From Roseimicrobium sp. ORNL1 (GTDB lineage Bacteria; Verrucomicrobiota; Verrucomicrobiia; Verrucomicrobiales; Verrucomicrobiaceae): a DNA stretch of 64,000 bases. Below are positions 6,069 to 40,413 of the stretch, in pieces (the first letter of the stretch is position 1; each line of letters begins with the position of its first letter). The stretch covers positions 7,564,001 through 7,628,000 of the forward strand of contig NZ_CP049143.1 in the NCBI RefSeq assembly GCF_011044495.1, given 5' to 3'. Made by a program: the position numbers and the translations under genes. The notes under the pieces were generated by a model. That model searched no databases. It worked only from the letters and a program-made list of their open reading frames with translations, and had not been told where the DNA came from.

Positions 6069-6129
6069 GTGTCGATGATTGACGGGAGGGCGAGACGCTT
6101 CATTAGTGCCGTCCCCCTCCCCGCTCCCC

Positions 6130-12979: not shown

Positions 12980-13246
12980 TATATCATGGTACATTGTGGT
13001 GTATCAGGATGGGTTAGACCATGGTGGGAACTTTGCCGGATGTATGCCATGGCCTACACAAATGTACCTAGTGAGGAATAGGGTCGTGGTGTAGCTGCGT
13101 GCCTCTGGGCTCGCACGGATTGACCTTGAGTTCCCCGCGCACTAGGCGTGGGGGATGCCCCCGCATTCTACCATGTGTTCCATGAGCTTTGGCGCCGTTC
13201 GCCAGCACCATCCGGGAAGCGGCTGGACTGGGGCGGGACCGTGGCC
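12980..13246. other. Intergenic region with GGTRTATCA motifs
   Basis: No gene is supported here. The stretch holds GGTATATCA (12979) and GGTGTATCA (12999), two of six copies of this 9-mer seen in non-coding DNA of the first 15 kb, and then GC-rich sequence leading into the glycosyltransferase gene. A promoter for that gene is expected but not clearly visible. Confidence 0.4.
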
Positions 13247-24016: not shown

Positions 24017-25642
24017 ATGAAGGCGTTCCACAAATCCCTGCGCTGGCGGATTCAAGCGGGACACGCTATCATCCTGCTGGTGGTACTGGTCGCGTTTGGT
24101 GGGACGGCTTACTGGCTTGTTCGAGAAAATAATTTCAAGAGACTTGATGCCGAATTGCAGCGCCGCATCACTGCAGTGGTAGCGGGAATCGGTCCCCCTC
24201 CAGCCCTGGGGTGGGAGCCCGGATTCCGCCTGCAGCGCGAGCACCGGACACTCTTTGAGGATGGAGGCCCGGGTTCGTATTATTACCTGGTTATTTCCGC
24301 ATCCGGCAAGACGATCGCCTCCTCACCGAACGCTCCCGCGAATGTTCCCGTGCCGGCATTCAAAGATGCGTCCAGTGATCCCGTGGTGAGGCAGCGTGGC
24401 GAGTTCAGGGAATTCATGCTCTTGTCCACACGACCGATGCCGCCTGGACTCATGGGAGAGCAGAAGGGAGTGCCGCGCGTACTGGCGCCGCCCAATCGGT
24501 CTTCTGCAAATCCCATGGTGGACCCGCCCTCGATGCCCAGCACGCCCCGGTTTCGCTTTCCGTTGGATGCGAACTTTGTGAAGAAATTTTTTCCGCAAAC
24601 CATGGTGGTCGTGGGCTGCTCCATCGCACCGGTCCAGGCAGAGCTGCGCCACCTCGCGTGGGGTTTCACGGTGGCAGGTGCTGCGGTGATTTTTTTGGGA
24701 GTGGCTACTGGCTGGCACTTTTCGGGTCGGGCCATCAAGCCCATTGGCGCCATCAGTCATGCGGCAAGAGTCGTGGCCGGAGGCAATCTCTCCGAGCGCA
24801 TCAAGATCAAGGATGCCACCAGTGAACTGGGTGAGCTGGCAGGGGTTTTGAATGAGACTTTTACCCGGCTGCAATCCGCCTTCGCGAGACAGGCGCAGTT
24901 CACCGCGGATGCTTCCCACGAGCTGCGCACGCCGACCTTCGTCATCCTGCTGCAGGCACAGGCGGCGCTAAAGCGAGAGCGTTCAGCGGAGGAATATCGC
25001 GAGGCCCTCAGTGTCTGCCAGATGGCCGCGCAGCAGATGAAAAACCTGGTGAACTCGCTCCTCATTCTCGCACGTCAGGATGCTCCCACCAGTGAGATTC
25101 ATCGAGTGCCTTGTGCCGTGGATGAAATCGTGACGGAATCAGCGAGCCTCCTTCGCTCGCTCGCTGCGGAACGGAATGTCCAGGTGCATCTCGACCTCAA
25201 GTCTGCCATGGCCTTGGGAGACCCGACGCAGTTGAAGCAGGTGATCGCAAACCTTCTCGTCAATGCCATCGAATACAACCGGCCCGGCGGTGAGGTGAAG
25301 TTGGCCGTATTCCAGGATACAACTGGTGTGGTGTTCGTTGTCAGCGACACCGGCGTGGGCATCTCCTCTCGCGACCTGCCGCATGTGTTTGATCGCTTCT
25401 ATCGCGCGGATAACTCACGTTCTTCCGCGGAAGGCCACACCGGATTGGGACTTTCGATCTGCAAGGCCATCATCGAATCTCATCGCGGTACGATCACGGT
25501 CGCAAGCGAACTTGGCAAAGGCACCACATTCACAGTGATGCTTCCGCTGGTGCCTCACAGCGAGACTGACACTGAGGCGAGCGCTGATCCCAGCCTGCGA
25601 AACGCGCCCTACGCAATCACGCCCTCTATCACATTGCCGTAA
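24017..25642 (+). CDS. Sensor histidine kinase
   Basis: 541 residues: TM1 near 14-36 (HAIILLVVLVAFGGTAYWLV), a periplasmic sensor of about 170 residues, TM2 near 215-238, a HAMP linker (GGNLSERIKIKDATSELGEL), the HisKA box with phospho-acceptor His in ADASHELRTPTFVI (near 303), and the HATPase core NLLVNAIEYNR (N box), DTGVGI (G1) and HTGLGLSICKA (G2). It autophosphorylates and passes phosphate to the regulator encoded 6 bp upstream. It belongs to the inner membrane. Its C-terminal coding region overlaps the convergent DUF1501 gene tail-to-tail by 34 bp. The ligand is unknown; the periplasmic domain has no motif I recognise. Confidence 0.93.
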   Translation: MKAFHKSLRWRIQAGHAIILLVVLVAFGGTAYWLVRENNFKRLDAELQRRITAVVAGIGPPPALGWEPGFRLQREHRTLFEDGGPGSYYYLVISASGKTIASSPNAPANVPVPAFKDASSDPVVRQRGEFREFMLLSTRPMPPGLMGEQKGVPRVLAPPNRSSANPMVDPPSMPSTPRFRFPLDANFVKKFFPQTMVVVGCSIAPVQAELRHLAWGFTVAGAAVIFLGVATGWHFSGRAIKPIGAISHAARVVAGGNLSERIKIKDATSELGELAGVLNETFTRLQSAFARQAQFTADASHELRTPTFVILLQAQAALKRERSAEEYREALSVCQMAAQQMKNLVNSLLILARQDAPTSEIHRVPCAVDEIVTESASLLRSLAAERNVQVHLDLKSAMALGDPTQLKQVIANLLVNAIEYNRPGGEVKLAVFQDTTGVVFVVSDTGVGISSRDLPHVFDRFYRADNSRSSAEGHTGLGLSICKAIIESHRGTITVASELGKGTTFTVMLPLVPHSETDTEASADPSLRNAPYAITPSITLP

Positions 25643-27021
25643 CTCAGCGGCACAGGACGATTGGCGAGGTCATGCAACTCGTGATGCGGGTCGATGCCCA
25701 TGAGGTGATACATCGTCGCGGCAAGGTCATCGGGCTTCACCGGCTTGTCCGCGGGATGTTCACCGTTCTTGTCGGAGGCGCCGTATACAAAACCGCGCTT
25801 CGTGCCACCACCAGCCATGAGGGCAGTGTAGCAGAAAGGCCAGTGGTCGCGACTCAGGGACTTGTTCACGCGAGGTGTGCGGCCGAATTCACCGACCCAC
25901 ACGACGAGTGTTTCATCCAGCAGTCCGCGTTGATCCAGATCAATCAACAGCGTGGGCAGCGTCTGCTCCGTCATGGGCAGGTGACGCTGCTCGATGATGG
26001 GGAACATGCGCGTGTTATCGAAGCCATGCGTATCCCAGCCACCACTGGTGGTGACACGTCCCCCGATATTGGGGTCGAAGGTCACGGTGACAAATTTCAC
26101 CCCAGCTTCCACCAAGCGGCGCGCAAGCAGGCAGCTTTGTCCATACGAGCTGCGTCCGTAGGAGTCGCGCACCTTGTCGGATTCCTTGCCCAGGTCGAAG
26201 GCCTCACGCACCTGCGAGCTGTGCAGCATGGCGAGCGCCTTTTCATAATAGCCATCCAGACCGCGCGCTGCGGCGGAGTACTCCAGAAGTCGGCTCTGGT
26301 TGTCCACCAGCTTCTGCATCTCGCGGCGCGCGGCGAGCCGCTCATACGTGATGCCATCCGGCAGGCTCAGCTCAGGCAGGGCGAAGTTGGGCTCGTTCGG
26401 ATCTTTGGTGACGAGGAAGGGATCGCGCGCTTTGCCCAAGAAGCTGGCGAATTGCCCCGGCGTCTGGGTGCCATCGCTGATCACGAAAGGCAGATGCACC
26501 GAGGTGGGAATTTCCAACCGTGAGGGCAGCATCACATCCGCCACACTGGTGTACGCGGGGAAGAGATCCGGCGTGTCCTTCAGGCGCTGGTCATCACTGG
26601 GCGGCGCATGGCCGGACAGCGCGTAGTAGCCCGCGCTGTTGTGATTCTTCATGTTGTGATGCACGCTGCGGATGAGCGTCACCTTGTCCATGATCTGCGC
26701 GGTCTTCGGGAGCAGGGAGTTCACCTGGATGCCGTCCACGTTGCTGGACATCGGCTTGTGAAAGCCGCGGATGCCACTGGGCGCATCCGGCTTCATGTCA
26801 AAGGTCTCCAGATGACTCGGGCCACCCCACTGGAAAAGGAAGATGACGGACTTTGCCTTGGCCACGCGCTTCTCGATCTTGGCAGCCTCCATGGCGCCGA
26901 GGAGCCGTGGCAGTGTCATGCCAAACAGACCCATGCCACCGACGCGCAGGATCGAGCGGCGACTCAGCAGGTGAGTGCTGTGGAAGTCACTGCAGGCTGG
27001 AGATGGCTGGGGCATGAGCAC
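25609..27021 (-). CDS. DUF1501 domain protein, Tat-exported
   Basis: About 470 residues with a twin-arginine signal (SRRSILRVGGMGLFG) near residues 19-35. The body shows family motifs: FLFQWGGPSHLETFDMKPDA, HHNMKNHNSAGYYALSGHAP, VTFDPNIGGRVTTSGGWDTH, VVWVGEFGRTPRVN and RDHWPFCYTALMAGGG. DUF1501 belongs to the alkaline-phosphatase-like superfamily and is very common in Planctomycetes and Verrucomicrobia, usually next to a DUF1549/DUF1553 cytochrome-like gene. Here that partner lies 6.7 kb upstream on the same strand (33748), with a metabolite locus between. Function unresolved. It overlaps the convergent kinase gene by 34 bp. Confidence 0.93.
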   Translation of the reverse strand: MLMPQPSPACSDFHSTHLLSRRSILRVGGMGLFGMTLPRLLGAMEAAKIEKRVAKAKSVIFLFQWGGPSHLETFDMKPDAPSGIRGFHKPMSSNVDGIQVNSLLPKTAQIMDKVTLIRSVHHNMKNHNSAGYYALSGHAPPSDDQRLKDTPDLFPAYTSVADVMLPSRLEIPTSVHLPFVISDGTQTPGQFASFLGKARDPFLVTKDPNEPNFALPELSLPDGITYERLAARREMQKLVDNQSRLLEYSAAARGLDGYYEKALAMLHSSQVREAFDLGKESDKVRDSYGRSSYGQSCLLARRLVEAGVKFVTVTFDPNIGGRVTTSGGWDTHGFDNTRMFPIIEQRHLPMTEQTLPTLLIDLDQRGLLDETLVVWVGEFGRTPRVNKSLSRDHWPFCYTALMAGGGTKRGFVYGASDKNGEHPADKPVKPDDLAATMYHLMGIDPHHELHDLANRPVPLSYGNVIEGVIA

Positions 27022-27108: not shown

Positions 27109-29769
27109 CTACCCCGCCCGGTCCAGATCCCCCGAATTGCCTGAGACAGAGGCAGCCGCGGCTTCGTTCGTGTCGAGCATCTTGTGGATGACAGAAGCCA
27201 CTTTGTCCGCGTGCTCCCGGATGTAGCTGAAATGATCGCCGGGAATCCGATGCACCGGCAGCGGATGACGGCTCAGTTTCTGCCAGCCCAGCGAGGGGTC
27301 ATTCCCCTCGGAGAGAAATCCTTCGCTGTTGATCAACTCCATGGGGAAGTTCACCTGAGGTGTCTCCCACGTGAGCAGGAGGCGGAAGAAGTCCTTCATG
27401 TGAGGTTGCAAAAGCTCATCAGCGTTCTCAAAACGTGTTCCGTGCGCCAAGCGGTGTTCGTTGGTCCGACTGTCCAGCAGGATGATCTTCTCCGGCATCC
27501 TGTCCGGGGCCACCTGCTCAATCCACCGCGCGATTTCCGCCGCCAGCACCCCTGAGCCGCACTCGCCCATCAAAATGAATGCACCGTGGGGATGCGCGCT
27601 CAGCAGTTGCTCGCCGATTTCCGCCGCCGCTGCCGTGAGCGAATGCATGTCACGGTACCTGTCGGTGAAAGCGGAAAGCCTGAGCCCATGAATGGGACGA
27701 TCCAGATCGAGCATCACCAGCATCTTGGCGAAGACCAGCAGTTCGTTCTCGCTTCCGTGGCCGCCGGGGCAGATGAAGATCGGCGCGCGGGTTCCCTGGG
27801 TGCGCATGGTAACGATGGACAGGTTTTTTGCAGGCAGCGCTTGTCCTCCGAAGGAGGTTCCGGCTGATGTCGCCTGGGCTGCCCAGATCGGGATCATCTC
27901 TGCGAGGACCGCGACTGTGGGATGATGCAACAACGCCACGGTTGGCAACTCGAAACCGTAGGTCGTCGAGAGCGTGCCCAGCACATTGATGGCGCCGAGC
28001 GAGTCGCCACCCAGCTCGAAAAAGTGATCATAGGCACCCACGCGCTCCACGTTCAGCGTGCGTGCGAATGCCGCGGCCACGGTGCGCTCTGTGTCCGTTC
28101 TTGGCGCCACAGGGAAGAGGTTGGCTCCCCTCTTCACCGCCGGGTGATCGAGTGTGAGCGAATTGCGATCTACCTTTCCATTGGGAAGCACAGGCAGGCT
28201 GTCGAGTTGGATAAACCTGCCCGGCATGGCATCGCCCGGCAGTTCGTTCTGCAGTTCCCGTCGCAGGGCGTCCGGATCCAGGAAGCTATTTTCCCTGGCA
28301 ATGACCCACGCCAGGATCTGCGCCTGCTTGTTCTCACCGGATGTCACCACGGTGACCGCAGCGGCACGAATGGAGGGCAGCTTGAGGAGCTCGGCTTCCA
28401 CCTCGGCCGGGCTGATGCGAATGCCTCCCACCTTTGCCTGCAGATCTTTTCTTCCCAGCCACACGAGTGCGCCGTCATCGGGTCGGATGCGACCGAGATC
28501 CCCAGTGAACAAAAGGCAATCGCCCGAACCATCGGCCGCCTCGCGAAACTTCCGCCGGGTGGCCTCTTCACGATTGATGTAGCCCGTGGAGAGCGCGCGG
28601 CTCTGCACGACAATTTCCCCGGGCTCTCCAAACGGCAATTGCGCGCCGTGTTCGTCAGCAATCCAGATCTGCTTCTCATCCACGGGATATCCCACCGGCA
28701 CACGATTCTCTGTATTGGGTGTTCCATGGTCAGCCAGGTAGCTGCAGAGGATCCCCGCACCCTCTGTCATGCCCAGCACATTTTGAAACACCGCGCCTCG
28801 AGGGAAGAGCCTTTGAAACGCGTCCAGATCCGACGCGAAGACCTGTTCGCCGCCCAGCAATACAAAGCGCATGGAGCGCAACGTGGACGCATCCTTCACC
28901 GCAGACACGAAGGAGCGGAACAACGTGGGCACCGAATGGTAGAACGTGATCTCATTGGCCTCGATCCAGTCCGGCAGCTTTTCCAGACCGCTGCCGCGCA
29001 CATCGTAGATGTGAAGGCACGCGCCGTTCAGCAGCGCTCCGAAGATGTCCATCATCGCCGCACCAAAGGTAGGCGAGATGAGACAGGTGAGCCGGTCCGC
29101 TGGTGAAATCTTGCCCAGCCGGGTCATGTTCCGGATGTTGACCAGCAGGGCGCGATGGCTGCGCACCACACCGGAAGGCGTGCTGGTGGTGCCCGAGGTG
29201 TAGTTCATGCACAGCGGTGCCCCCGCTTGGATCGGCACCGCGTTTGCGTTTGTCTCATCTTCGGACGCATCCTTCGCGGCTTGAATCATGTCCGCCACAT
29301 CCAGTCGTACGATGTCTGGACCGGTGAGCGTGTCTGCCACCTGCATCGTGTCTTTGGTGATCAGGGTCTTTGCCCCCGAGTCTTCCAGCATGAAGCGGAG
29401 TCGCTCCACGGGCAGGGAGGGATTCAGAAAAACATAGGGTCTGCCCGCAGCGACTGCACCCAGGATGGGTGCAATCATGGAGGCCTCATGACGCAGTAGC
29501 AGCGCCACCGGAGGGCCAGGCGGGCCCAGAGCGCGTTGAATGGCGCGTGCTTGCTTCCAAAGCTGGCGGTAGGTCAGTACTCCCTTCTCCCCAGAGACCG
29601 CAGGGCGGTTCGCATGCGCCTGCACGATGCTCTCAAACCGCTGCCACACATTTCCTTCTGTACCTTCTTTGGGGAAATCACGGTACAGCGCGTGGGTGGC
29701 CACCTTGACGCGCGCCCTGCCACGCCACTGCTTCCACCTCAAGCTTACATTTGAAATCGACCGCGTCAT
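27109..29769 (-). CDS. Single-module NRPS-like protein: adenylation, carrier and thioesterase domains
   Basis: About 886 residues from the ATG at 29769. Residues 40-520 are an AMP-binding adenylation domain: NYTSGTTSTPSGVVRSHRAL (A3), NVLGMTEGAGILCSYL (A5), LFTGDLGRIRPD (A7/A8) and LPNGKVDRNSL (A10). A phosphopantetheine carrier domain follows, FFELGGDSLGAINV, with attachment Ser590. The C-terminal 250 residues are a thioesterase: PIFICPGGHGSENELLVFAK, then the nucleophile elbow LMGECGSGVLAAE, where the usual Ser is Cys737, and the terminal His in DHFSYI. There is no condensation domain. It would activate and release a single carboxylic or amino acid. The divergent methyltransferase starts 54 bp away. 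Confidence 0.85.
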   Translation of the reverse strand: MTRSISNVSLRWKQWRGRARVKVATHALYRDFPKEGTEGNVWQRFESIVQAHANRPAVSGEKGVLTYRQLWKQARAIQRALGPPGPPVALLLRHEASMIAPILGAVAAGRPYVFLNPSLPVERLRFMLEDSGAKTLITKDTMQVADTLTGPDIVRLDVADMIQAAKDASEDETNANAVPIQAGAPLCMNYTSGTTSTPSGVVRSHRALLVNIRNMTRLGKISPADRLTCLISPTFGAAMMDIFGALLNGACLHIYDVRGSGLEKLPDWIEANEITFYHSVPTLFRSFVSAVKDASTLRSMRFVLLGGEQVFASDLDAFQRLFPRGAVFQNVLGMTEGAGILCSYLADHGTPNTENRVPVGYPVDEKQIWIADEHGAQLPFGEPGEIVVQSRALSTGYINREEATRRKFREAADGSGDCLLFTGDLGRIRPDDGALVWLGRKDLQAKVGGIRISPAEVEAELLKLPSIRAAAVTVVTSGENKQAQILAWVIARENSFLDPDALRRELQNELPGDAMPGRFIQLDSLPVLPNGKVDRNSLTLDHPAVKRGANLFPVAPRTDTERTVAAAFARTLNVERVGAYDHFFELGGDSLGAINVLGTLSTTYGFELPTVALLHHPTVAVLAEMIPIWAAQATSAGTSFGGQALPAKNLSIVTMRTQGTRAPIFICPGGHGSENELLVFAKMLVMLDLDRPIHGLRLSAFTDRYRDMHSLTAAAAEIGEQLLSAHPHGAFILMGECGSGVLAAEIARWIEQVAPDRMPEKIILLDSRTNEHRLAHGTRFENADELLQPHMKDFFRLLLTWETPQVNFPMELINSEGFLSEGNDPSLGWQKLSRHPLPVHRIPGDHFSYIREHADKVASVIHKMLDTNEAAAASVSGNSGDLDRAG

Positions 29770-29822
29770 AGATGACTGGATGCACCCTGCACAAACCAAA
29801 CCCTCCCAGTGCACTGAGCCGC

Positions 29823-30536
29823 ATGTCAGATAAACAAACGCGTCAGCAAGATGGAGCCGCACCGGTCCCAACCACGGTTTCACAACACAGTCAAGAAGCG
29901 TGCCCTCCAGTTGCTTCCAGTTGCAGAGAAATCACAGAAGTGGCCAATCTTGGGTTCGAACCCGTCTACAGAAGCGGCCATCCGGAAAAGCTTCCGTGGC
30001 ACTGGGCGGGCCTGGATCCCGATGTAGCACTCGCATTGCAAAAGCTGCACATCACCGGAGGACGCATCGTGGATTTGGGAGCAGGTGCCGGGACTCAAGC
30101 CGTGGCTCTCGCGCAGCGTGGCTTCGAAGCATGGGCCACCGATTTTTCAGCGGCAGCCATGCAATGCGCGGCAAGTCTTGCCACCGAGAAAGGCGTCTCT
30201 GTCACCTGCGTGGTGGATAATGTGTGCAACACCAAGCTACAGGAGAATTTTGATCTGGTGTTGGATCGCGGCTGCTTTCATGTCGTCCCTCCAGCGCAAC
30301 GTCCTGCCTACCTCTCCTCCCTCGCGAAGATTCTGCCCGTGGGTGGCCTGCTCTTCCTCAAATGCTTCAGCATTGCTGAACCTCCACGACCAGGTCCCTT
30401 CCGCTTCTCAGAGAAGGAGGTGCTGGAATACTTCGGTGCAAATTATGAGCGAATCGATGGATGGGACACGGAGTTTCACGGCACACGCCAGCCGCATCCC
30501 CGGGCTATCTTTGTGATCTTGCGGCGTGTGTCCTGA
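29823..30536 (+). CDS. Class I SAM-dependent methyltransferase
   Basis: 237 residues from ATG 29823 (an upstream in-frame start at 29772 adds 17). The SAM-binding core is clear: motif I GGRIVDLGAGAGTQAVALAQ near residues 80-100, the acidic end of the second strand in GFEAWATDFSAAAMQCAAS, then VTCVVDNVCNTKL and NFDLVLDRGCFHVV, LKCFSIAEPPRPGP. The segment before motif I (PWHWAGLDPDVALALQ) is like small-molecule methyltransferases of the thiopurine / UbiE-like group. Substrate unknown. It is divergent from the NRPS-like gene and likely a tailoring enzyme of that locus. Convergent with the APS kinase gene across a 169-bp repeat element. Confidence 0.85.
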   Translation: MSDKQTRQQDGAAPVPTTVSQHSQEACPPVASSCREITEVANLGFEPVYRSGHPEKLPWHWAGLDPDVALALQKLHITGGRIVDLGAGAGTQAVALAQRGFEAWATDFSAAAMQCAASLATEKGVSVTCVVDNVCNTKLQENFDLVLDRGCFHVVPPAQRPAYLSSLAKILPVGGLLFLKCFSIAEPPRPGPFRFSEKEVLEYFGANYERIDGWDTEFHGTRQPHPRAIFVILRRVS

Positions 30537-30590
30537 CTGGGTGCGAGGTCTGTGAGGGGCTGTTCCATTTGAAGGTGGAGCGGCGGGCAT

Positions 30591-30759
30591 GCAAAGGAGC
30601 GTGGACACTCTTGTCCGCTATCGCTGATGCACCACCTCCCTTCATCCAGCAGGCAAGGCCACATTCCACTAGCTGCTCCAGAGACGTCTCCAGTTGCTTC
30701 CGCATGATGGAGCTCGATGCACTACAGAACGGCGGACAAGAGTGTCCGCGCTCCTTTGC
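30591..30759. repeat. 169 bp BIME/MITE-like inverted-repeat element, copy 2 (family A)
   Basis: Arms 30591-30618 and 30732-30759 are complementary at 27 of 28 bases and match the arms of copy 1 (7130-7298). The core shares the block GGCAGGCAAGGCC-type and GCATGATGG with copy 1. Both copies are exactly 169 bp. It lies between the convergent methyltransferase and APS kinase genes. Confidence 0.9.
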
Positions 30760-30779
30760 GCGCTCTTTCGCTTCCTGCA

Positions 30780-31310
30780 CTATGTGGCCTCTTGAAGGAA
30801 CCGCCGGGCCATCTGCCACGTGACTTCGCAGCAGGCTTCCGGGTCTGCTTGATTGGTATCGATCACGCCATCCACTTCGCTTTCGTCAGGCTCTTCAAAC
30901 GTGTCTGCGGCAAAGTGCGTGATCAATCCCTGCTGCGCCCGTCGATAAAGTCCCTTCGGGTCGCGCGCCGCGCAAACCTCGTGGCTGGCTTTCACGTGGA
31001 TCAGGCGCAACTGGTCCCCCAGGATGCTTCTCAAGAGCGCGCGGTGATGCCTTGCCGGACACATGGTGGCACCCACCACTGTCATCCCCTGCGCACTGGC
31101 CAGCCTCGCAATCTCCGCAGCGCGGCGGTGATTCTCCGTGCGGCTGGCATCATCATAGCCCAGGTCCGCGCACACCCCCGCCCGAAGTTCGTCTCCATCC
31201 ACGAGCTGCACCGTCCTGCCCTCCTTGCGCAGGTGTTCTACGATGCTGCTGGAGAGGGTGCTTTTTCCCGCGCCGGATCGACCAAAAAACCAATAGATGA
31301 TTCCACTCAT
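30780..31310 (-). CDS. cysC: Adenylyl-sulfate (APS) kinase
   Basis: Phosphorylates adenosine 5'-phosphosulfate to PAPS, the sulfate donor for sulfotransferases and sulfate reduction. The 176-residue protein, from ATG 31310, starts MSGIIYWFFGRSGAGKSTLS with Walker A 10-17, and has the LVDGDELR motif and RTENHRRAAEIARLAS segment of CysC, then ARDPKGLYRRAQQG. The typical DGDNVR sequence is DGDELR here, a small variation. It is 22 bp downstream of a sulfotransferase gene on the same strand, so it very likely supplies PAPS to that enzyme rather than general sulfur assimilation; no cysH, cysD or cysN is in the window. Confidence 0.93.
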   Translation of the reverse strand: MSGIIYWFFGRSGAGKSTLSSSIVEHLRKEGRTVQLVDGDELRAGVCADLGYDDASRTENHRRAAEIARLASAQGMTVVGATMCPARHHRALLRSILGDQLRLIHVKASHEVCAARDPKGLYRRAQQGLITHFAADTFEEPDESEVDGVIDTNQADPEACCEVTWQMARRFLQEAT

Positions 31311-31332
31311 GCTGGATGACAAAGAACACAGT

Positions 31333-32178
31333 TCATAGCTGCAACCGCGCACGTAGCAACGCGGTTTGAGCCTCGGTACGGCGCACGGACTGGTGCATCA
31401 TCTCGGAGGCCTCGAGGCACTGCATCGCGGTATTCGCAGCCTGTTCTATCCAGGTCTCCCAGACATCCGTGTTGGATTCCATTTCCGCCTCCTCGTAGCC
31501 GAGTGTGGACATCAGTTGTCCGTGAAACACGCGGAAGAGCCAGTCCACTTCCCGGGTCCAGTCTGCTGGACGTTCCCATTGAGACTTGCCCTCGCGGAAG
31601 ACAAGCGGCTCTCTCTGCTGCAGGGTCGCAAACGGATTCGCCCAAGGACGCGGCTCCACGGTGTGGCTGACGAAGCCAGCCAGGCGCTGTAGCAGTGCGG
31701 GTGATGCCTCACGAAGATCTTCGAAGCGTACCAAGAGGCGCGGCGCGCTCGCGAATTCGTCATTCCACGCGTGGTAGTGGGAACTCCAGTCCCCGTAGTA
31801 ATCATGTCCCGTCACCAGTTCGACGAGGGTCCGGCCGATCTCCGGCAGCAGTTTCTGGTGGTATTGCAGGTAGCTGTAGATGGCCTTGCGTCCATTTCGC
31901 ACCACATAGATGGCAGGCTGGTCATCGATGGGACCTTCATGCGTCTTGACCAGATGCACCTGTTCCGAGGCCGTGGCCATGGGATAGAACTCCTCCCATG
32001 GCATCTCGGGATGGATCTCGCCGAAGGCCTGGCTGTTCTCATTGGGGCTGACCTTGGACTGCAGAAGGCGCGGCCATTCGGTGCGCTCGGGCAGTGAATG
32101 CAGTCCCATGGTCTGCTGGAGAACGGTGCGCAGTAGCGTATTGCCACTGCGAGGATAGGAGGCTAGCCAGATGATCAT
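31333..32178 (-). CDS. Sulfotransferase domain protein
   Basis: 281 residues from ATG 32178, giving the N-terminus MIIWLASYPRSGNTLLRTVL, whose SYPRSGNT is the 5'-phosphosulfate-binding loop of cytosolic-type sulfotransferases. EGPIDDQPAIYVVRNGRKAI has the 3'-phosphate-binding region with an Arg, and LLVRFEDLREASP is the conserved strand near the C-terminal half. It transfers sulfate from PAPS to a hydroxyl or amine of a small molecule or glycan. Upstream in-frame residues to 32370 are unlike the family. It is 22 bp upstream of cysC and 73 bp downstream of a second sulfotransferase gene, in one minus-strand operon. Acceptor unknown. Confidence 0.9.
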   Translation of the reverse strand: MIIWLASYPRSGNTLLRTVLQQTMGLHSLPERTEWPRLLQSKVSPNENSQAFGEIHPEMPWEEFYPMATASEQVHLVKTHEGPIDDQPAIYVVRNGRKAIYSYLQYHQKLLPEIGRTLVELVTGHDYYGDWSSHYHAWNDEFASAPRLLVRFEDLREASPALLQRLAGFVSHTVEPRPWANPFATLQQREPLVFREGKSQWERPADWTREVDWLFRVFHGQLMSTLGYEEAEMESNTDVWETWIEQAANTAMQCLEASEMMHQSVRRTEAQTALLRARLQL

Positions 32179-32251
32179 GTTAGTCCTGACGGGTAATCGC
32201 AGCAGCCATGCAGCCGCGCATTCGGTCCATTCCACGGATGATTGATTCCGT

Positions 32252-33580
32252 TCATCCTTGCTCCTCCATTCCCCACGCATCCTGCCTGGCTCCTGCGGTG
32301 TGCACCCAGCCAAAATGATAGACGCGATATGACATGGTTCTGGCATCCCCGGCCACGGTTGCTCCCCCACCCTCGATCTTGAAGGTGAGCTTCCAGTCTT
32401 CGCTCGTGTTTCCCACGCAAGCGGACAAGTCCAGGATGATTCCTTGCTTGGTGGCTGCTATCTCTGCTGTGGTGATGGTTCGGCCGCTTTGATCGAGCAC
32501 GCACAGGGTTGCGGGGAGGAGCTCAATAGAGGGTCCGGGTTCCAGTTCGAGCTGTAGGTGCGTCATGCCGCCACTGGGTCGGCGCACGGTCATCTCCGCT
32601 TCGTCAGCGACCCAGCAGAAGCTCTGGCCCTCATGCTCTTCCACGGAATACCATCCCGTACCGCTGATCAGCACATCCTGCTGCAGGGAGTTTTCCGGTC
32701 GTGCTGGACCACTCTGCAACCACTGGCGGTCGAGCAGGGGGAAGTCAGCGCGGCGGGAGGCACTGACGAGTTCGGGTGCCCGCTCATGATAGTGCGGCGG
32801 TGGTATGGGCATGTCCTTCTCAGAGCGCAGTTGGTTGGGTGGCACCGGGAGGGTTTGCTCTGATTCATATCCCGTGGCGATCAAGACCTTGCCGTACACG
32901 GTGTAGAACTTCTCCAACACCTCTCCCTTCAGATGGTTTCGCCAGTCACCGGCCACTCCGCGCCGGTAGTGGGAGCTGCGGTCCTCCGTGCCGGGTTGAC
33001 GACCGCTCCTTTTCTGGAAGGCCATGGCCTGCACCGCATTCCGCAGCATGGCCTTGGAAACCTTCAATTCACTGTGGTCCAGGATGCTGCCAAAGAACTC
33101 CATGGGATCCTTGAGCGCATCCTCGTAGCGGTAGATGGGGACATCACCCCCAAGCCATGAAAGCTGGATGGTGGCGGCATTGCTGATTCCCAGACTGATG
33201 ATGTGTGCCAACCCTTCTTCATCCGTCATGTCCTTCAGCTCATCCCGCATCCCGGTGACATCACCTTCCACCAGAGTGGGATGGCTGTACCGGAGGCTGA
33301 AGTAGAGGGATACAAAAGTGTCCCGCAGATCCCGCATCACAAAAAACTTCCGGTGATGGGCCGGGACTTTGATGGACTCGAACTCAGCCCTCGAAGCATA
33401 CACCGTGGGATAGATGCGACCCTCCTGGATGGGAAACTCGTGAAAGTGTCCGGTCCAGGCCTGGGGATACACGATGCGATGGGGAAAGAGCGAATCGAGA
33501 ATCTGGTAGACCCATTGCGACCCGGTCTTCATGTGGGTCAGATGAAAGATGGTCGCAGGACTTCTGGAGGCGCTGGGCAT
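32252..33580 (-). CDS. Sulfotransferase with extra C-terminal beta-sandwich-like domain
   Basis: 442 residues. Residues 1-270 look like a sulfotransferase: HLTHMKTGSQWVYQILDSLF has the P-loop-like KTGSQW (18-23), FFVMRDLRDTFVSLYFSLRY the 3'-phosphate site, and PIYRYEDALKDPMEFFGSI the following strand. The C-terminal 150 residues, from SGTGWYSVEEHEGQSFCWV to RTMSYRVYHFGWVHTAG, form a beta-rich extension of the GWY-x-W-E type seen at the ends of some sulfo- and glycosyltransferases. First gene of the sulfotransferase-sulfotransferase-cysC operon. Acceptor unknown, likely a product of the same locus. The start is taken at 33580. Confidence 0.85.
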   Translation of the reverse strand: MPSASRSPATIFHLTHMKTGSQWVYQILDSLFPHRIVYPQAWTGHFHEFPIQEGRIYPTVYASRAEFESIKVPAHHRKFFVMRDLRDTFVSLYFSLRYSHPTLVEGDVTGMRDELKDMTDEEGLAHIISLGISNAATIQLSWLGGDVPIYRYEDALKDPMEFFGSILDHSELKVSKAMLRNAVQAMAFQKRSGRQPGTEDRSSHYRRGVAGDWRNHLKGEVLEKFYTVYGKVLIATGYESEQTLPVPPNQLRSEKDMPIPPPHYHERAPELVSASRRADFPLLDRQWLQSGPARPENSLQQDVLISGTGWYSVEEHEGQSFCWVADEAEMTVRRPSGGMTHLQLELEPGPSIELLPATLCVLDQSGRTITTAEIAATKQGIILDLSACVGNTSEDWKLTFKIEGGGATVAGDARTMSYRVYHFGWVHTAGARQDAWGMEEQG

Positions 33581-33747: not shown

Positions 33748-36030
33748 CTACTTGCGCAGCACGAACTCCTTTGCATTCACCAGGCTCCACGCCAGGTCTT
33801 CCAGCGTGGTCCGCTTGTCCTTTGCCTGGCTGAGCATCGCGGCCATGGCCTCCTTTTCCTGCGCGGAGGGGGCACGTGTCAGCACACTCCAGTAGAGGGA
33901 CTCCACCTTCGCGGCGTCATCACTCTTCTCATTCAGCAGGCGGGTGAGGAGATTGGATTTGCTCTTCAGCAGGTTGTTCACCTGGGGACCGCTGATGAGC
34001 GAGAAGGACTGTCCCATGGTGGTCTCATCACTGCGCTCGCATTCACAGGCGAGCAGGCGCGGGGGCTGGCCGAACTGCGAGAGAAAGGCCACACCGGTGT
34101 CACTGCCGGCTTCTTTCTTGCGGCGATTCAGCGGCCCGGGAAGCTGCACCGCCTTGGTCGCCGTGGGGAATTCATCAAACTTCGCCTGTACGCCGAGCCC
34201 TTGATGCAGCGCATCAAAGAGCTGCTCCGCCGTCAGCCGGCGCACATAGGCATAGGCGAAGTTCGTCGTGTCCGCGGCATTCGAGGCATTCGGCTCGCTG
34301 CTGAGCTGGTAGGTCCGCGACTGCATGATGATGCGGATGATGTGCCGCATGTCATAACCGCTTTGCACGAACTCCTCCGCGAGCTTCTTGAGCAGCTCCG
34401 GATGTGAGGCAGGGTTCGTGGCGCGGAAGTCATCCACCGGATCCACCAGACCACGGCCCATGAGGTGGTACCAGATACGATTCACCTGGGCCTGGGCAAA
34501 GAGCGCATTCGTGGGGCTGGTCACCCAATCAGCCGCGGCATCCAGATCCTGTTGCTGGTCCAGCACCTTTGCATCGAGCTCGGCAGCGCCCAGTAGCTTG
34601 GCCTTGGCCTGCTCACCCGTACGAGGGTTGATGACCTTGGTGGACTTGGAAATCTGCACCACCTGCTCGCCCTTGAAGCGATGCTTGTCACTCTTGTCCT
34701 CGACCTCGTTGTTGATGATCTTGTAGTCCACGCGGGAGAACACCGCGCTCCACTGGAAGTAATCATCCTGCGTCCAGCGATCGAAGGGATGGTTGTGGCA
34801 CTGCGCACACTGCAGGCGCGTGCCGAGAAACACACGGGCGATGCCTTCCGCGCGCGCATTGGGTTCGCGCATGGCGCGGTAAAAGTTTGTCTGTGGAACC
34901 GAGTAGGTGCTGCCCTGGGCCGCGAGCACCGCGTGGGAGAACTTGTCCACCGGCATGTTGCGCGCCACCGCATCGCGGATCCACGCGTGGAAGGCGGTCA
35001 TGCCTTTCACATCCATGGTGCGGGACTCCACGCGCAGCGCATCCGACCACTTCACCGCCCAGAAGTCGGCGAAGGCGGCAGTGGTCATGAGCTGATCCAC
35101 TAAGCGCGCGCGTTTGTCCGGCGCCTTGTTTGCCACGAAGGCTTTCGCCTGTGTGGCCGTGGGCAGGGCACCGCACAGGTCGAGATAGGCGCGGCGCACG
35201 TACACCTCATCGGTGCAGAGATCGCTCGGCGTCATGCGCAGGGACTTCAGCTTTGCGAAGACCTGGCGATCCACGAAATTGTTCTGCGGCGTGGGCGTCC
35301 ACACAAACTCCGGTCGCGCTGCGATGAAGGCGAGACGCACCGGCTGTTGCTTGTTCAGGTAGCGCACCACGATGGTGGGTTCGCCTTCCTGCAGTTTCTC
35401 CACGCGGCCTTCCTTGCTCACCTTGATGAGTCCCACCTGCGCCGGCTCATACACAGCGAGCTTCGTCACATCCTTCTGAGTGCCATCGGAGAAGGTAGCC
35501 GTGGCCTTGAGCTGCACCACCGTCTGCGGTTCCACGAGGATCTGTTCGCGCGGGGTGACTTCGAGCTTCTGTAGTTCCGGTTCGCCCGGCGTGTGCCGGC
35601 GAGCGCCTTGGGCAATCCAGTCGCGCAGCACCGCGTACTCCCAGGAGTTCTTGTCGAAGCGTTTGCCGCCCTCGTGCGCCAGGGCCTGGGTGGCCTTTTG
35701 CAGCAGCAGGCTGCGCTCGGGCTCCATGAGATTCACGCGGCGCCCGCTGACATCCTGCACCAGCGCAGCAAAGTCGTAATCCGTATCATCCCCGCGCAAG
35801 GACATCTTGAAGCCACCCTTGCCCGTGGCATTGCCGTGGCAGTTGCCCAGGTTGCACCCCGCCTTCGCGATGGCCGCCTGCACGTCGTTCTTGAAGGAAA
35901 TCTCCCCCGCGACTGCCGGCACAACGCCCCCCAGCGACGACGCCACACCCGCCATGGCCAGCAAGGCCGCGGAACGGGAACGGCTGATGAAGGTGCGGTG
36001 GGACAACGACACTGGAAGAAAGAAACGCAT
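33748..36030 (-). CDS. DUF1549/DUF1553 cytochrome-like protein (PSCyt)
   Basis: 760 residues. Signal peptide, then a haem-like motif CNLGNCH (Cys59, Cys64, His65), which differs from the CxxCH of c-type haem by two extra residues. Next come a BIG2-like Ig domain (QTVVQLKATATFSDGTQKDV), DUF1549 (from FVDRQVFAKLKSLRMTPSDL, with ARVFLGTRLQCAQCHNHPFD containing CAQCH) and DUF1553 (ALFAQAQVNRIWYHLMGRGL; RRLTAEQLFDALHQ; ERSDETTMGQSFSLISGPQV). The family is a hallmark of Planctomycetes and Verrucomicrobia and probably has a redox role in the periplasm. Its usual DUF1501 partner lies 6.7 kb downstream on the same strand. Confidence 0.93.
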   Translation of the reverse strand: MRFFLPVSLSHRTFISRSRSAALLAMAGVASSLGGVVPAVAGEISFKNDVQAAIAKAGCNLGNCHGNATGKGGFKMSLRGDDTDYDFAALVQDVSGRRVNLMEPERSLLLQKATQALAHEGGKRFDKNSWEYAVLRDWIAQGARRHTPGEPELQKLEVTPREQILVEPQTVVQLKATATFSDGTQKDVTKLAVYEPAQVGLIKVSKEGRVEKLQEGEPTIVVRYLNKQQPVRLAFIAARPEFVWTPTPQNNFVDRQVFAKLKSLRMTPSDLCTDEVYVRRAYLDLCGALPTATQAKAFVANKAPDKRARLVDQLMTTAAFADFWAVKWSDALRVESRTMDVKGMTAFHAWIRDAVARNMPVDKFSHAVLAAQGSTYSVPQTNFYRAMREPNARAEGIARVFLGTRLQCAQCHNHPFDRWTQDDYFQWSAVFSRVDYKIINNEVEDKSDKHRFKGEQVVQISKSTKVINPRTGEQAKAKLLGAAELDAKVLDQQQDLDAAADWVTSPTNALFAQAQVNRIWYHLMGRGLVDPVDDFRATNPASHPELLKKLAEEFVQSGYDMRHIIRIIMQSRTYQLSSEPNASNAADTTNFAYAYVRRLTAEQLFDALHQGLGVQAKFDEFPTATKAVQLPGPLNRRKKEAGSDTGVAFLSQFGQPPRLLACECERSDETTMGQSFSLISGPQVNNLLKSKSNLLTRLLNEKSDDAAKVESLYWSVLTRAPSAQEKEAMAAMLSQAKDKRTTLEDLAWSLVNAKEFVLRK

Positions 36031-36090
36031 GCTGCGGACCAATCTTCCGGGGGACTGCCGGGACTCACCCGTCGCGGTCCTGCCTTCACC

Positions 36091-37509
36091 TCACGGCTCA
36101 AACTCCGGCCGGAAGGTGAACTCCAAAGGCACGCCCTCATCCGCGCCGAAGGTGACTGTCAGATGGTTGCCTGGTAGAGGGCGGGGGACACGTCCTTTGT
36201 AAATGAGGCCGTTGTCGGGATGATTGTCCACAAATCCCACGAGTTCCAACGGCTCGCGGTGGGTCGCGGCATGGTCAGAAACGGGCAAGCCCCCATTCCC
36301 TTGCGCATCGGCAGCGTGGAGCATGACGAGCACCTGTTTCTCCATGCGGGGGCTGATGGTGACGCGAAACGACACTGCAGAAGTTCCTTCGCTCTGGACG
36401 TCATCCAGCCGGACTTTGCGGCCCAGAAGGGTAAGCACTTCGTGATAAGGTTCGGTCGGGGTAGTCTCCAAACCTTCAACGGGCACCGGCACGCGTTGGA
36501 ACGTGACCTTCTCTGCGGGAGTATAGTCGCTATCGAGGTTTCGAAGCGCTCGGAACCGCACCCTCCATACTTGGGAATCATTCCAGAGCGCTCTTCCCAC
36601 CACCTCGGCTCCGCCGGAAGGGGTGCTTTTGGGCCAGTACGCGATATTGCTCTTGGAGTCCTCGATCAGCCATTCATAGAAGGAGTACCTTCGGTGGGCG
36701 GGCTCATGCCCGTCCACGTTCATCTCAAACCGAAGGCCACCAGTGAGTTGGCTGGCCACGCGGGAGCGCACCACCCGGGTAAGATTGAGGGTGTGATCAT
36801 GGCAGGCAGCCTTTGCTGGAAGTATCTGAGGCGTAAGAGGCGGTACGGGTGCGTCTTCTTGAAGAGCATTGCGGATTTTCATTTCGGCAACTACCTCTCC
36901 CAGCTTGCCATTGTCCCGCTGTTCCCAAGGTTGCTGTTCGGATTCACCTTCGCGACTTCTAACTCGGAGCTGTATGTGCTTTTGGTCCCTCGGCACGCAG
37001 CCCTCAAAAGCTACCCACGGGGTATCCCCGCTCTTCCCTGGAAAAGAGACGCGGTTGAAAGAAAACGGCCAGGTTTCAGATTCGTAGCCCTGGTCATCGA
37101 CCCAGAAGAACCGCCAGCTCTCTTCGTTGAATGTAGGACTCACTTCAAACCACAGCACCTGCCTGGATGCACAAGAAAAGTTCCTGGAGATGCCTCGCTT
37201 GCTGAGCGGAACGGGGAAGTGACGTTGGAGCGACCAAGGCAGCCTTTTCCACACGGACTCCCAGGCAGTCTTCTTCGGCTTGAGTTCGTAATCGTGACTA
37301 TTGAGCGGGTCGATACCTGCTGGACGCGAATTCTTCGGTTCAATGAATTCCAAAAATGTAATGGAGCTTCCATCAGGCAATCGCGCAGTGGTGGAGCCGT
37401 GTAGTACGAGCATGTAGGCAATCCATCCCCCGACAAGCATGATCGCTCCGGCTGCCCAAGGCCAGTGACGGCGCTTTGCTGGGGGCTCTGTAGTGACATT
37501 CTCGATCAT
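36091..37509 (-). CDS. Membrane-anchored hypothetical protein, paralogue 3 of three
   Basis: 472 residues: one TM segment (about 17-36, AAGAIMLVGGWIAYMLVLHG), then an extracytoplasmic region. Motifs shared with the next two genes are LPDGSSITFLEFIE, WRFFWVDDQGYESE, LNLTRVVRSRVASQ plus a Gly-Leu-Arg-Phe-Glu-Met stretch, and the terminal EFTFRPEF. It ends in -EFTFRPEFEP. No known domain was recognised. The three paralogues lie in a row on the minus strand, each separated by 57 bp, suggesting tandem duplication and a shared operon. The mature domain repeats look beta-rich. Function unknown. Confidence 0.75.
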   Translation of the reverse strand: MIENVTTEPPAKRRHWPWAAGAIMLVGGWIAYMLVLHGSTTARLPDGSSITFLEFIEPKNSRPAGIDPLNSHDYELKPKKTAWESVWKRLPWSLQRHFPVPLSKRGISRNFSCASRQVLWFEVSPTFNEESWRFFWVDDQGYESETWPFSFNRVSFPGKSGDTPWVAFEGCVPRDQKHIQLRVRSREGESEQQPWEQRDNGKLGEVVAEMKIRNALQEDAPVPPLTPQILPAKAACHDHTLNLTRVVRSRVASQLTGGLRFEMNVDGHEPAHRRYSFYEWLIEDSKSNIAYWPKSTPSGGAEVVGRALWNDSQVWRVRFRALRNLDSDYTPAEKVTFQRVPVPVEGLETTPTEPYHEVLTLLGRKVRLDDVQSEGTSAVSFRVTISPRMEKQVLVMLHAADAQGNGGLPVSDHAATHREPLELVGFVDNHPDNGLIYKGRVPRPLPGNHLTVTFGADEGVPLEFTFRPEFEP

Positions 37510-37566
37510 GATCGCAGCCTGTTCATGACAGGTGCCATCCGCAAATCAAGACCATGCCCCTATTCT

Positions 37567-38961
37567 TTACTGCTCAAACTCCGGCCGGAAGGTGAACTCC
37601 AGAGGCACGGCTTGTTGCAAGCCGAAGGTGAAGTTCATTTCTTCGAGTCCCGTGGGGCGCGGGTTGCGCATTTGATAGCGCACTTGAAACACCGTGTGCT
37701 TGCTGTTCCGTTCTATAGCGTAGGCGGAAGTCCCCAGAAACATGGGTGAAATTGGAGACAACGGCCTTCCTTGTCCGTCCGCCACATTGAGCATCAGCAG
37801 GTCACGACCACCGACAGGGGGCGTGACGGTGATTTTGAAGTTAACCATGTCGCTGCCGATTTCCACGGAGTCCACCTGAAGGCGGTGGCCTTTCACGGTG
37901 TAGGATTCCGTCCAGGGATAGACTTGGGGTGTGGCCTGCCCTGCGGGCGGAGGAGAAACCGGGAGGCGCTGGATCACGAACTTCTCGTCTGGCGCAAAGT
38001 CCTTCTCCAGATAGCGGCAGGCGCGGACTCGTGCCTTCCAGACTGGTGCATCACTCCACAGGGCGCTGCTGAAAAAGTGATTTTTGTCAGGACTGTTGAG
38101 ATAGTTCGCTGTCATGGTGGTGCCAGCAGCGTTTTCAAAAATCCAGTCGTGAAGCTGAAACTTGCTGGCGATGGGGAGGCCATCATCAAGATGCATTTCA
38201 AATCGCAGTCCTCGAGTGGGCTGGCTTACAACCCGGGAACGAACCACCCTTGAAAGAGTGACGGTGTGATCACCACACGGAACAGTCACCGGCAGCATTT
38301 GAGGGGTGAGGGAATGGACGGCCTCGCGACGGTACAACGGATTGTTCAACCACATGTCAGCGGCGAGCCCACCCAAGTCGCGAGGGCTATTGGGGCGCCA
38401 TTGCTCGCCGGCACGACTTCGGATCCTCAAGTGCAACTTCCTTCCTCCCGTGGGCATGCATCCCTCCACCACCAGCCACGCGGAAGCAGGTGCCGCCGAA
38501 GACGCAACGGCCTCAGATTCGTAGCCTTGCTCATCCACCCAAAAGAACCGCCACTGCTGGTGATCAAACTTGTCGCTCACCATGAACCACACCGATTGTT
38601 TGCTGGCAGAGTCGAATGCCAGCGAAACAAAATCGGCCTGCCGGGGCTCAGGGACGAAGCGACGCAGGGTATCGGGCAGGCGCTTCCACATGGGTTCCCA
38701 CTCGCTCTGAAAGGGACCACGCCCGTGCTCATAGATCGGTGGCAGCCAGGGATCTGCCGACGCGGCGGTGCCTCGGGCTTCGGCGACTTCCACAAACGTA
38801 AGGGTGTTGCCATCGGGGAGAGTGACTGAAGAACGCGCTTGGGTGGCCACCAAATAAGCGAACCAAACGACCAGGAGTACCACCAGCGAAAGCACCACCA
38901 TCATGGGCCATCGCTTTCGACTGTTCTTGTTCTCCCGCGGGGTCTGGGCCTCGGTCGTCAT
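37567..38961 (-). CDS. Membrane-anchored hypothetical protein, paralogue 2 of three
   Basis: 464 residues with an N-terminal TM (about 20-42, MMVVLSLVVLLVVWFAYLVA) and a long outer part. It shares with its neighbours LPDGNTLTFVEVAEA, WRFFWVDEQGYESEA, TLSRVVRSRVVSQPT and the C-terminal EFTFRPEFEQ. It therefore belongs to the same unknown family. Order of transcription is paralogue 1, 2, 3 and each gap is 57 bp. The similarity to the other two is spread along the whole length, so these are full-length copies, not domain fragments. Function unknown. Confidence 0.75.
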   Translation of the reverse strand: MTTEAQTPRENKNSRKRWPMMVVLSLVVLLVVWFAYLVATQARSSVTLPDGNTLTFVEVAEARGTAASADPWLPPIYEHGRGPFQSEWEPMWKRLPDTLRRFVPEPRQADFVSLAFDSASKQSVWFMVSDKFDHQQWRFFWVDEQGYESEAVASSAAPASAWLVVEGCMPTGGRKLHLRIRSRAGEQWRPNSPRDLGGLAADMWLNNPLYRREAVHSLTPQMLPVTVPCGDHTVTLSRVVRSRVVSQPTRGLRFEMHLDDGLPIASKFQLHDWIFENAAGTTMTANYLNSPDKNHFFSSALWSDAPVWKARVRACRYLEKDFAPDEKFVIQRLPVSPPPAGQATPQVYPWTESYTVKGHRLQVDSVEIGSDMVNFKITVTPPVGGRDLLMLNVADGQGRPLSPISPMFLGTSAYAIERNSKHTVFQVRYQMRNPRPTGLEEMNFTFGLQQAVPLEFTFRPEFEQ

Positions 38962-39018
38962 TCTACTTCAGGTTTGGTGCAAACATTGGAAAATGCAGAG
39001 TGTCCAGGATCCGGGACA

Positions 39019-40413
39019 CTACGGCTTGAATTCCGGTCGGAAGGTGAACTCCACCGGCGTGACTTCTTTGAATGCAAAGGTCAGGGTCAGGGTGTTGCCC
39101 ACGGCAGGCCGGCGACACCGGCCCATGAGCTTGCTGGCGGTGCTCCCCAATTCTTCCAAATGAAGAGAGGCGGCATGTTTTTCCCGGCCATAGGAAGTCT
39201 GGGAGGTCTGGCTTCCTGATTCGTCGGCGGCATGCAGCATCTGCAGACTATGACCGTTTACGGGGGGGCTGATCGTGATTGGAAACACCACCTCGTTCGG
39301 CCCCCTCGACTTCACATCGCCGAGGCGGATCGTATGCCCGCCGATGGTTTTTTCGCAGTGCCAGCCCACGGAAGTCCAGCCTTTGAAGCCTGCTGGCGGG
39401 GGCATGGGCATGGGATCCAGCACGAAGATTTCGTCCGCGCTGTAGTACTTTGGATCCTCGTACACCGGCACAAAGCGGATCCTCCACACGGTTGTGTCAC
39501 TCCACGGCGCGCAGTCCCACTCCTGGCCTTTGCCAGAGAAGGTGCCGCTGACCGGAATCATCACGTTGCCAGTTCCGTCTTCGATGGTCCAATCACGCAT
39601 GTCGAATCGACCATCCTTCGAGCCCGGGCCATCGAGGTGCAGGTCCAGATGCAGGCCGAGAGTGGGTACACTGACGACGCGCGGCCGCATCGCTCCAGCC
39701 AGGGTGAACGTGTGCTCACCTATGCCGACCTTCGCTGGAAGCGTCTGCGCGGTCATGGCGGGGGCTGGAGTGTTGCTTCGCAGGGGGTTGCGGAATTTTA
39801 CCTCCGCGACGACTTCGCCCAGGACACCTTTGCCGCTGAAACTTTGCTCTTCGCCTTTCTTGGATCTCACTTTCAGGTGCAGCAGCTTCTGGCTGCGGGG
39901 CACATTGCCTTCCATCCCGAGCCAGGCGCCGTGATACTCGATGAACCGGGAGTTCGCCTCGGTCTCATATCCCTGGTCATCCACCCAGAAAAATCTCCAT
40001 TGGCTTTCTTCAAAGGGCCCATCAATGGCAAACCACAACGCAGACCGCACCGGGGAGTTAAATCCGCTCGCCATCCCCGGAGTAGCGCGCTCACCGGGAA
40101 GGAGACGGTCCAGGCGTTCGGGAAGCCATCCCCGAAGTTTATCCACCATGCCGACTGGGATCTCGTACCCATGGGTGTAAACAGGCAGGCCTGAGCCATT
40201 CTCGTGCAGACTCCCCCTCGTCTTGCTTTCCACGGCTTCCAAGAAAATGATCCTGGTGCCTCCTGGCAGATGCAGGATCGCCGGCTTCCGGGACATGAGC
40301 ATGTAGCAGGCCCAGGCTGCCAGGCAAAGAACCCCCAAGCCGATGACGAGCCCAAGACGGCGCTTTTCATGAGTCTGCGACCCGGCTTGAGCGTGAGCCT
40401 TTTCCTCTTCCAT
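39019..40413 (-). CDS. Membrane-anchored hypothetical protein, paralogue 1 of three
   Basis: 464 residues, TM near 23-40 (LGLVIGLGVLCLAAWACYML), then the same modules as its two neighbours: LPGGTRIIFLEAVES, WRFFWVDDQGYETEA, FTLAGAMRPRVVSVPT and the C-terminal EFTFRPEFKP. It is the first gene in the run and divergent from the Tat-exported amidohydrolase, 118 bp away, so the promoter probably lies between them. A hairpin (38999-39020, seven base-pair stem) directly follows its stop codon. Function unknown. Confidence 0.75.
   Translation of the reverse strand: MEEEKAHAQAGSQTHEKRRLGLVIGLGVLCLAAWACYMLMSRKPAILHLPGGTRIIFLEAVESKTRGSLHENGSGLPVYTHGYEIPVGMVDKLRGWLPERLDRLLPGERATPGMASGFNSPVRSALWFAIDGPFEESQWRFFWVDDQGYETEANSRFIEYHGAWLGMEGNVPRSQKLLHLKVRSKKGEEQSFSGKGVLGEVVAEVKFRNPLRSNTPAPAMTAQTLPAKVGIGEHTFTLAGAMRPRVVSVPTLGLHLDLHLDGPGSKDGRFDMRDWTIEDGTGNVMIPVSGTFSGKGQEWDCAPWSDTTVWRIRFVPVYEDPKYYSADEIFVLDPMPMPPPAGFKGWTSVGWHCEKTIGGHTIRLGDVKSRGPNEVVFPITISPPVNGHSLQMLHAADESGSQTSQTSYGREKHAASLHLEELGSTASKLMGRCRRPAVGNTLTLTFAFKEVTPVEFTFRPEFKP

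Follow-up and report, generated by a model that had tools for sequence, protein, structure and literature searches.

The 64,000-nucleotide stretch analysed here, from the genome of the soil isolate Roseimicrobium sp. ORNL1 (the window; contig NZ_CP049143.1, positions 7,564,001 to 7,628,000) carries a group of five genes at 27109-33580. These genes encode a protein with adenylation (A), carrier and thioesterase (TE) domains, hereafter A-PCP-TE, a class I S-adenosylmethionine (SAM)-dependent methyltransferase, a kinase of adenosine 5'-phosphosulfate (APS) and two different sulfotransferases, ST1 and ST2 (Table 1). All five, which a preliminary description of this DNA had already named, are real genes, with Pfam scores far above chance. 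The open reading frame (ORF) at 27109-29883(-) matches AMP-binding (E 1e-63), PP-binding (4e-12) and Thioesterase (3.7e-10), and Pfam lists no condensation domain in it, in agreement with the free-standing protein described before. The ORF at 29772-30536(+) matches Methyltransf_25 (5.8e-14) and TPMT (4.2e-10), and that at 30780-31352(-) matches APS_kinase (1.5e-37), followed by two Sulfotransfer_1 matches at 31333-32370(-) (3.5e-12) and 32252-33580(-) (3.2e-12). Judged from the point where sequence conservation begins, the likely starts of A-PCP-TE (ATG 29769), ST1 (ATG 32178) and the APS kinase (ATG 31310) are later than the first starts of their ORFs.

Table 1. Genes and features at the locus and its two flanks (window coordinates).
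Feature	Coordinates	Strand	Basis and remarks
A-PCP-TE (NRPS-like adenylation, carrier, thioesterase; 886 aa)	27109..29769	-	Pfam domains, motifs, relatives, tree
Class I SAM methyltransferase (TPMT/TehB-like)	29772..30536	+	Pfam; start 29772 or, possibly, the later 29823
Interspersed repeat with 28-bp inverted ends	30591..30759		Genome self-matches and inverted ends
APS kinase	30780..31310	-	Pfam, P-loop and conserved motifs
Sulfotransferase ST1 (PF00685)	31333..32178	-	Pfam, YPRSGNT motif
Sulfotransferase ST2 (PF00685), with C-terminal extension of ~200 aa	32252..33580	-	Pfam
DUF1549/DUF1553 (PSCyt2/PSD1) protein, left flank of variable site	33748..36042	-	Pfam
DUF1501 protein, right flank of variable site	25609..27021	-	Pfam

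The genes ST2, ST1 and APS kinase form a single same-strand row. The methyltransferase gene lies on the strand opposite to the other four, divergent from A-PCP-TE and convergent with the APS kinase; therefore, one operon of all five genes is impossible. Between the convergent ends sits a dispersed repeat that divides the genes into two sets, and its inverted ends of 28 bases each occupy 30591-30618 and 30732-30759. The stretch 30537-30779 (243 bases) has in this genome at least 40 matches longer than 100 bases, one of which is itself, versus 4 in G061, the sole other genome of the genus compared; the count was made by eye from the listing and is a lower bound here, with the best 40 of 71 candidates scored. 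Because of this difference, the repeat seems to have multiplied in this genome. Pieces of any length matching the same stretch number at least 120 here and 20 in G061. A second 169-bp copy lies elsewhere in the window, at 7130-7298. The five genes have GC contents of 57.0-61.4%, against 57.2-62.4% for nine neighbours, and a recent foreign island was rejected on this ground, the base composition of the locus being not clearly different from its surroundings. A promoter and terminator scan gave no signal above shuffled sequence.

The interval between the DUF1549/DUF1553 and DUF1501 genes is variable among related genomes, as revealed by a flank comparison that takes in the loci from L026 on. The left-flank protein is 90% identical in G061 and 70-71% in three other genomes, and the right-flank protein 96% and 84-85%, respectively. 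At the site in G061, which is the single informative genome for gene co-occurrence, the order is PSCyt (90%), ST2 (62%), APS kinase (74%), another PF00685 sulfotransferase and DUF1501 (96%), and the ATG of the APS kinase overlaps the ST2 stop codon (ATGA). This other sulfotransferase (PF00685, E 9.4e-10) shares with ST1 a 21-residue match and no more. Between the same flanks G061 has no A-PCP-TE, no methyltransferase and no ST1 domain, the remainder of that genome not having been searched for the methyltransferase. Its nearest A-PCP-TE is 32% alike and lies on a different contig, and a search of all of G061 with ST1 gave nothing at E 1e-10. A short match there to residues 3-49 of the long ST1 ORF (E 3e-6) was discounted, because it precedes the ST1 start and falls where this ORF and the end of ST2 overlap. 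In G064, G065 and G067, which belong to genus g11, the site is empty, and 152, 143 and 166 bases, respectively, separate the flanks. Four others (G011, G012, G019 and G046) have the left flank and no DUF1501 match in the stretch taken, so they are uninformative on the site. In both genomes of the genus the site thus holds a row of sulfonation genes, accompanied by different extra genes.

We consider, with moderate confidence, that the variable site between DUF1549/DUF1553 and DUF1501 holds two separate, adjacent gene sets rather than one new sulfated-metabolite pathway. This reading is favoured because the row in G061 lacks A-PCP-TE, methyltransferase and ST1, the site is empty in the three g11 genomes, gene orientation and the repeat divide the locus, and the APS kinase is the only one of the genome. 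One set would be the sulfonation row, in which the APS kinase would phosphorylate APS to 3'-phosphoadenosine 5'-phosphosulfate (PAPS), and ST1 and ST2 would transfer the sulfo group of PAPS to an acceptor, for which a glycan is somewhat more probable than a peptide. The other would be the divergent pair of methyltransferase and A-PCP-TE, where the A domain would adenylate a carboxylic acid, probably not an alpha-amino acid, and load it onto the carrier, and the Cys-type TE would release it via hydrolysis, cyclisation or coupling of two units. The two sets probably owe their adjacency to history rather than to a shared pathway. The preliminary description had envisaged a compact pathway in which sulfonation serves the product of A-PCP-TE, to be refuted if related genomes keep the sulfotransferase and APS kinase genes apart from the A-PCP-TE gene. 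G061 has precisely such a site, with sulfotransferase and APS kinase genes and without A-PCP-TE or methyltransferase; the five genes do not stay together in this one informative genome, and the single-pathway reading appears weakened by the co-occurrence test where it can be applied.

The APS kinase possesses both the family profile and the expected motifs, namely the P-loop GRSGAGKS and RDPKGLY, although its TIGR00455 score of 131.7 is slightly below the cut-off of 138.7. This genome and G061 each have a single PF01583 gene, located at this site, compared to two in G064, three in G065 and one each in G067 and G012. PF00685 genes number four in this genome and three in G061, two of them in the locus in each case. 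The genes of CysD and CysH are located away from the locus, and CysN (439 aa) carries no fused kinase. CysH (218 aa) has the ECGLH motif without the cysteine pairs found in iron-sulfur reductases, a combination that points to the PAPS-using kind, so CysH looks to be a PAPS user. Because the genome has a sole PF01583 gene, an apparently PAPS-type CysH and a CysN without kinase, the APS kinase is probably needed for cysteine synthesis as well, supplying PAPS to CysH in a housekeeping role. The earlier idea that PAPS is made on the spot is thus upheld in part: ST2 and the APS kinase are paired at the site in both genomes of the genus, but the kinase is the sole copy of the genome and not an extra, local one. 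Since the row is on one strand and this pair recurs in both genomes, sulfonation with an adjacent PAPS source looks like a real unit. Standing next to sulfotransferases and apart from cysDH, a lone APS kinase would make both cysteine synthesis and sulfonation depend on one gene.

A-PCP-TE has the domain set of a non-reducing protein resembling nonribosomal peptide synthetases (NRPS), with A, carrier and TE domains and no condensation domain. Its catalytic residues are in place, including a lysine in PNGKVD, the carrier serine in GGDSL and a Cys-Asp-His triad in the TE. We assign the names A3, A8 and A10 to the stretches TTSTPSG, KVGG and PNGKVD of the A domain, of which the first two are degenerate, with the A3 lysine and A8 arginine positions changed. 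The C-lobe profile PF13193 scores 19.7 bits, under the curated cut-off of 24.5. Alignment with two A domains of LgrA and 17 relatives picked from the loci fetched placed a glycine (FGAAMM) at the position of Asp235 in GrsA, where 10 of the 17 relatives have Asp. The residue is thus neither the Asp of alpha-amino-acid A domains nor the Val reported as first code residue of A-T-TE enzymes for alpha-keto acids. As the amine-binding Asp is missing, the substrate is probably a carboxylic acid without an alpha-amino group. Of the ten-residue code that had been proposed as a check, the first position (Gly) and the lysine could be read, and the other positions are not trusted. The notion that the enzyme loads one acid and releases it goes further than necessary, as unchanged release is one option and described A-T-TE enzymes couple two aromatic keto acids. 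The TE has Cys at the nucleophile position (GECGSG), where Ser is usual; as a special sign this was set aside, many aligned relatives having Cys too.

The relatives of A-PCP-TE are remote, all whole-match identities being below 60%. Among 68 family and 384 sampled class genomes the best whole match reaches 37% identity (G440), and one 241-residue stretch at L022 reaches 41%. Matches at E 1e-40 or better occur in 8 of 67 other family genomes, and at E 1e-70 or better in at least 29 of 383 other class-sample genomes (best identity 37%), where at most the best two candidates per genome were scored. A genome-contig scan, which depends on exact peptide patterns and is insensitive, gave a best identity of 34%, and the matches listed among plasmid records reach 31% (10 of 2448 records with a match). 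Elsewhere in this genome there are four weak matches (best E 4.9e-14) and none that is strong. Four family proteins also lack the Asp, with G, I, G and T in L007, L008, L009 and L015, respectively; L015 directly follows an NRPS gene, and the other three stand alone. The preliminary description had called for a comparison of such neighbourhoods, which speaks against its pathway: with the queries used, no sulfotransferase, APS kinase or methyltransferase of the window type was found within 5-10 kb on each side of the four. A tree built from 18 A domains joins that of A-PCP-TE to six other rows without Asp, at a support of 90/82, below the mark of the tool, and places L015 elsewhere on a long branch. 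The structure of A-PCP-TE predicted with four relatives had a mean predicted local distance difference test (pLDDT) score of 46.6, too poor for structure search.

The methyltransferase matched several small-molecule enzymes among solved structures, including thiol methyltransferase 1 and Rv0560c, which ranked behind uncharacterised methyltransferases. Matches at E 1e-18 or better were found in 5 of 383 other class genomes, with identities of 29-33%. It may serve in detoxification just as plausibly as in a pathway.

Both sulfotransferases combine the PF00685 profile with the motifs YPRSGNT (ST1) and THMKTGSQW (ST2), which we take to be PAPS-binding. ST1 has a match in 1 of 67 other family genomes (32%). 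For ST2, the class sample, which did not include G061, gave matches in 4 of its 383 other genomes, at 33-40% over the first ~240 residues. Three of these four ST2 relatives have glycan surroundings: L079 lies with GT2, Wzt-type and ABC-2 proteins, L080 with a Wzt-type protein, and L081 with GT2- and GT4-type proteins. Moreover, Pfam confirmed sulfotransferases near three of the seven APS kinases of four family genomes (L128, L130 and L132), and glycosyltransferases near those in L128 and L130, L132 not being scanned for them; some family APS kinases adjoin Sulfotransfer_2/3 and glycosyltransferases. In the window, two glycosyltransferase-type genes are situated farther off (13148-14500 and 61664-63085), as is a sugar epimerase-type gene at 6079-7071. 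The structure predicted for ST2 alone was too poor for structure search (mean pLDDT 37.4). A further PF00685 sulfotransferase, 63% identical between both genomes of the genus (L124:7609-11549 and L126:5794-9554), adjoins a large protein that carries TylF and Methyltransf_24 domains.

A narrower form of the interpretation as two gene sets, which we hold as a tentative possibility, would make the site a glycan modification locus, where ST2, ST1 and the other sulfotransferase of G061 act on different positions of a surface polysaccharide and are exchanged, with A-PCP-TE and the methyltransferase as unrelated passengers. It agrees with the surroundings of the ST2 relatives and of some family APS kinases, with the different second sulfotransferase in G061, and with the designation of PAPS genes plus sulfotransferases as a hallmark of sulfated polysaccharide clusters in the part of PMC11641403 drawn on here. 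We infer a lean towards a glycan acceptor rather than a result, and a number of observations weigh against it and against the independence of the two sets. A scan of 38 window ORFs recognised, up to 12 kb from the locus, neither a glycosyltransferase nor an export gene of the kind expected in a glycan cluster. The best solved matches of ST1 (1.3e-6) and ST2 (3.4e-4) are cytosolic small-molecule sulfotransferases, with weak E-values. With the queries used, four of the seven family APS kinases had no sulfotransferase nearby, not every ORF being Pfam-scanned, and the same was true of all eight APS kinases elsewhere in the class whose surroundings were compared. One ST2 relative, L078 in G252, has a piece of an NRPS gene at a distance of 1.2 kb. 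Furthermore, ST2 (62%) and the APS kinase (74%) are far less alike in G061 than the flanks (90% and 96%), and because of this lower identity they may not be simple, strict orthologues. A gain in ORNL1 is indistinguishable from a loss in G061 with one other genome of the genus, and the joint absence of ST1, methyltransferase and A-PCP-TE from the G061 site could reflect a joint arrival.

This joint absence, together with the packing of five biosynthetic genes into 6.5 kb with conserved flanks on either side, the NRPS piece beside the ST2 relative in G252 and the precedent of sulfazecin, would also fit one pathway, in which a small acid-derived product of A-PCP-TE is methylated and sulfonated by ST1 and/or ST2 with local PAPS. 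We regard this as unlikely, as G061 keeps ST2 and APS kinase without A-PCP-TE, the kinase is a single copy, the sets are transcribed in separate directions with a repeat between them, and the family relatives of A-PCP-TE had neither sulfotransferase nor APS kinase found nearby. Quite doubtful, too, is a variant in which ST1, methyltransferase and A-PCP-TE plug into the resident PAPS supply, A-PCP-TE taking a non-amino carboxylic acid and its product, carrier-bound or released, being methylated and sulfonated. If true, sulfated metabolites would be made with the help of the only APS kinase of the genome, a housekeeping one, by a small three-gene route to a sulfated acid useful to natural-product chemists. 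A sulfazecin-like monobactam route, with N-sulfonation of 2,3-diaminopropionate on the carrier and ring closure by the Cys thioesterase, might be suggested by the TE cysteine and by the presence of sulfotransferase, APS kinase and methyltransferase. It is highly improbable and was rejected on two features, as the Gln-Cys-Asn of SulM is here Glu-Cys-Gly and the amine-binding Asp is missing; in addition, Cys nucleophiles are frequent among the aligned relatives. On the interpretation as two neighbouring sets, the locus illustrates that a tidy-looking gene cluster can be a place of exchange flanked by two conserved genes.

Some further features were seen. Locus L078 (4230-9478), from another family of the class, may be a second instance in which a sulfotransferase and an NRPS gene are neighbours. 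Within the window, 14884-20484 encodes an 1866-aa protein with two UvrA copies in one chain, whose halves are 43% identical over 554 residues, and 36091-40413 encodes three adjacent proteins of 464-472 aa with 33-37% mutual identity and no Pfam match.

A literature search, judged by the titles and the beginnings of abstracts of the papers listed, found no description of such a locus in Verrucomicrobia. However, the earlier statement that no described pathway has exactly this set of genes is too strong, given sulfazecin, which combines NRPS, an APS kinase within SulI, a sulfotransferase and a methyltransferase. In the sections of PMC11298585 used here, SulI unites the first NRPS module with an adenylylsulfate kinase, and SulM contributes two further modules and a Cys-type TE; SulN is the sulfonating enzyme, and the methoxy group is introduced by SulO and SulP. 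The likeness thus extends to the Cys-type TE, whereas sulfazecin has three amino-acid NRPS modules and the TE motif Gln-Cys-Asn, compared to the single module and Glu-Cys-Gly here (PMC11298585). Fungal quinone synthetases, non-reducing A-T-TE enzymes that couple two aromatic keto acids, share the three-domain order and a first code residue other than Asp; this residue is Val in the fungal enzymes, as far as the consulted portion of PMC10316625 describes them, and Gly here, the two being likened by description and not by sequence comparison. Polysaccharide clusters resemble the locus in their sulfotransferases. Excerpts of the respective sources report a PAPS and sulfotransferase set in the capsule polysaccharide cluster of Vibrio sp. 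KMM 8419 (PMC11641403) and a putative sulfated glycosaminoglycan cluster with a sulfotransferase in Pontiella, of the same phylum (PMC7356697). PAPS supply genes are a further likeness in Vibrio (PMC11641403), whereas a glycosyltransferase or export gene was not recognised within 12 kb of the present locus. Finally, although its NRPS lies outside the cluster and its chemistry differs, the Pht cluster of phaseolotoxin, in the excerpt of PMC5453526 relied on here, likewise brings together adenylylsulfate kinase-like and sulfotransferase-like genes for a product that needs an NRPS.

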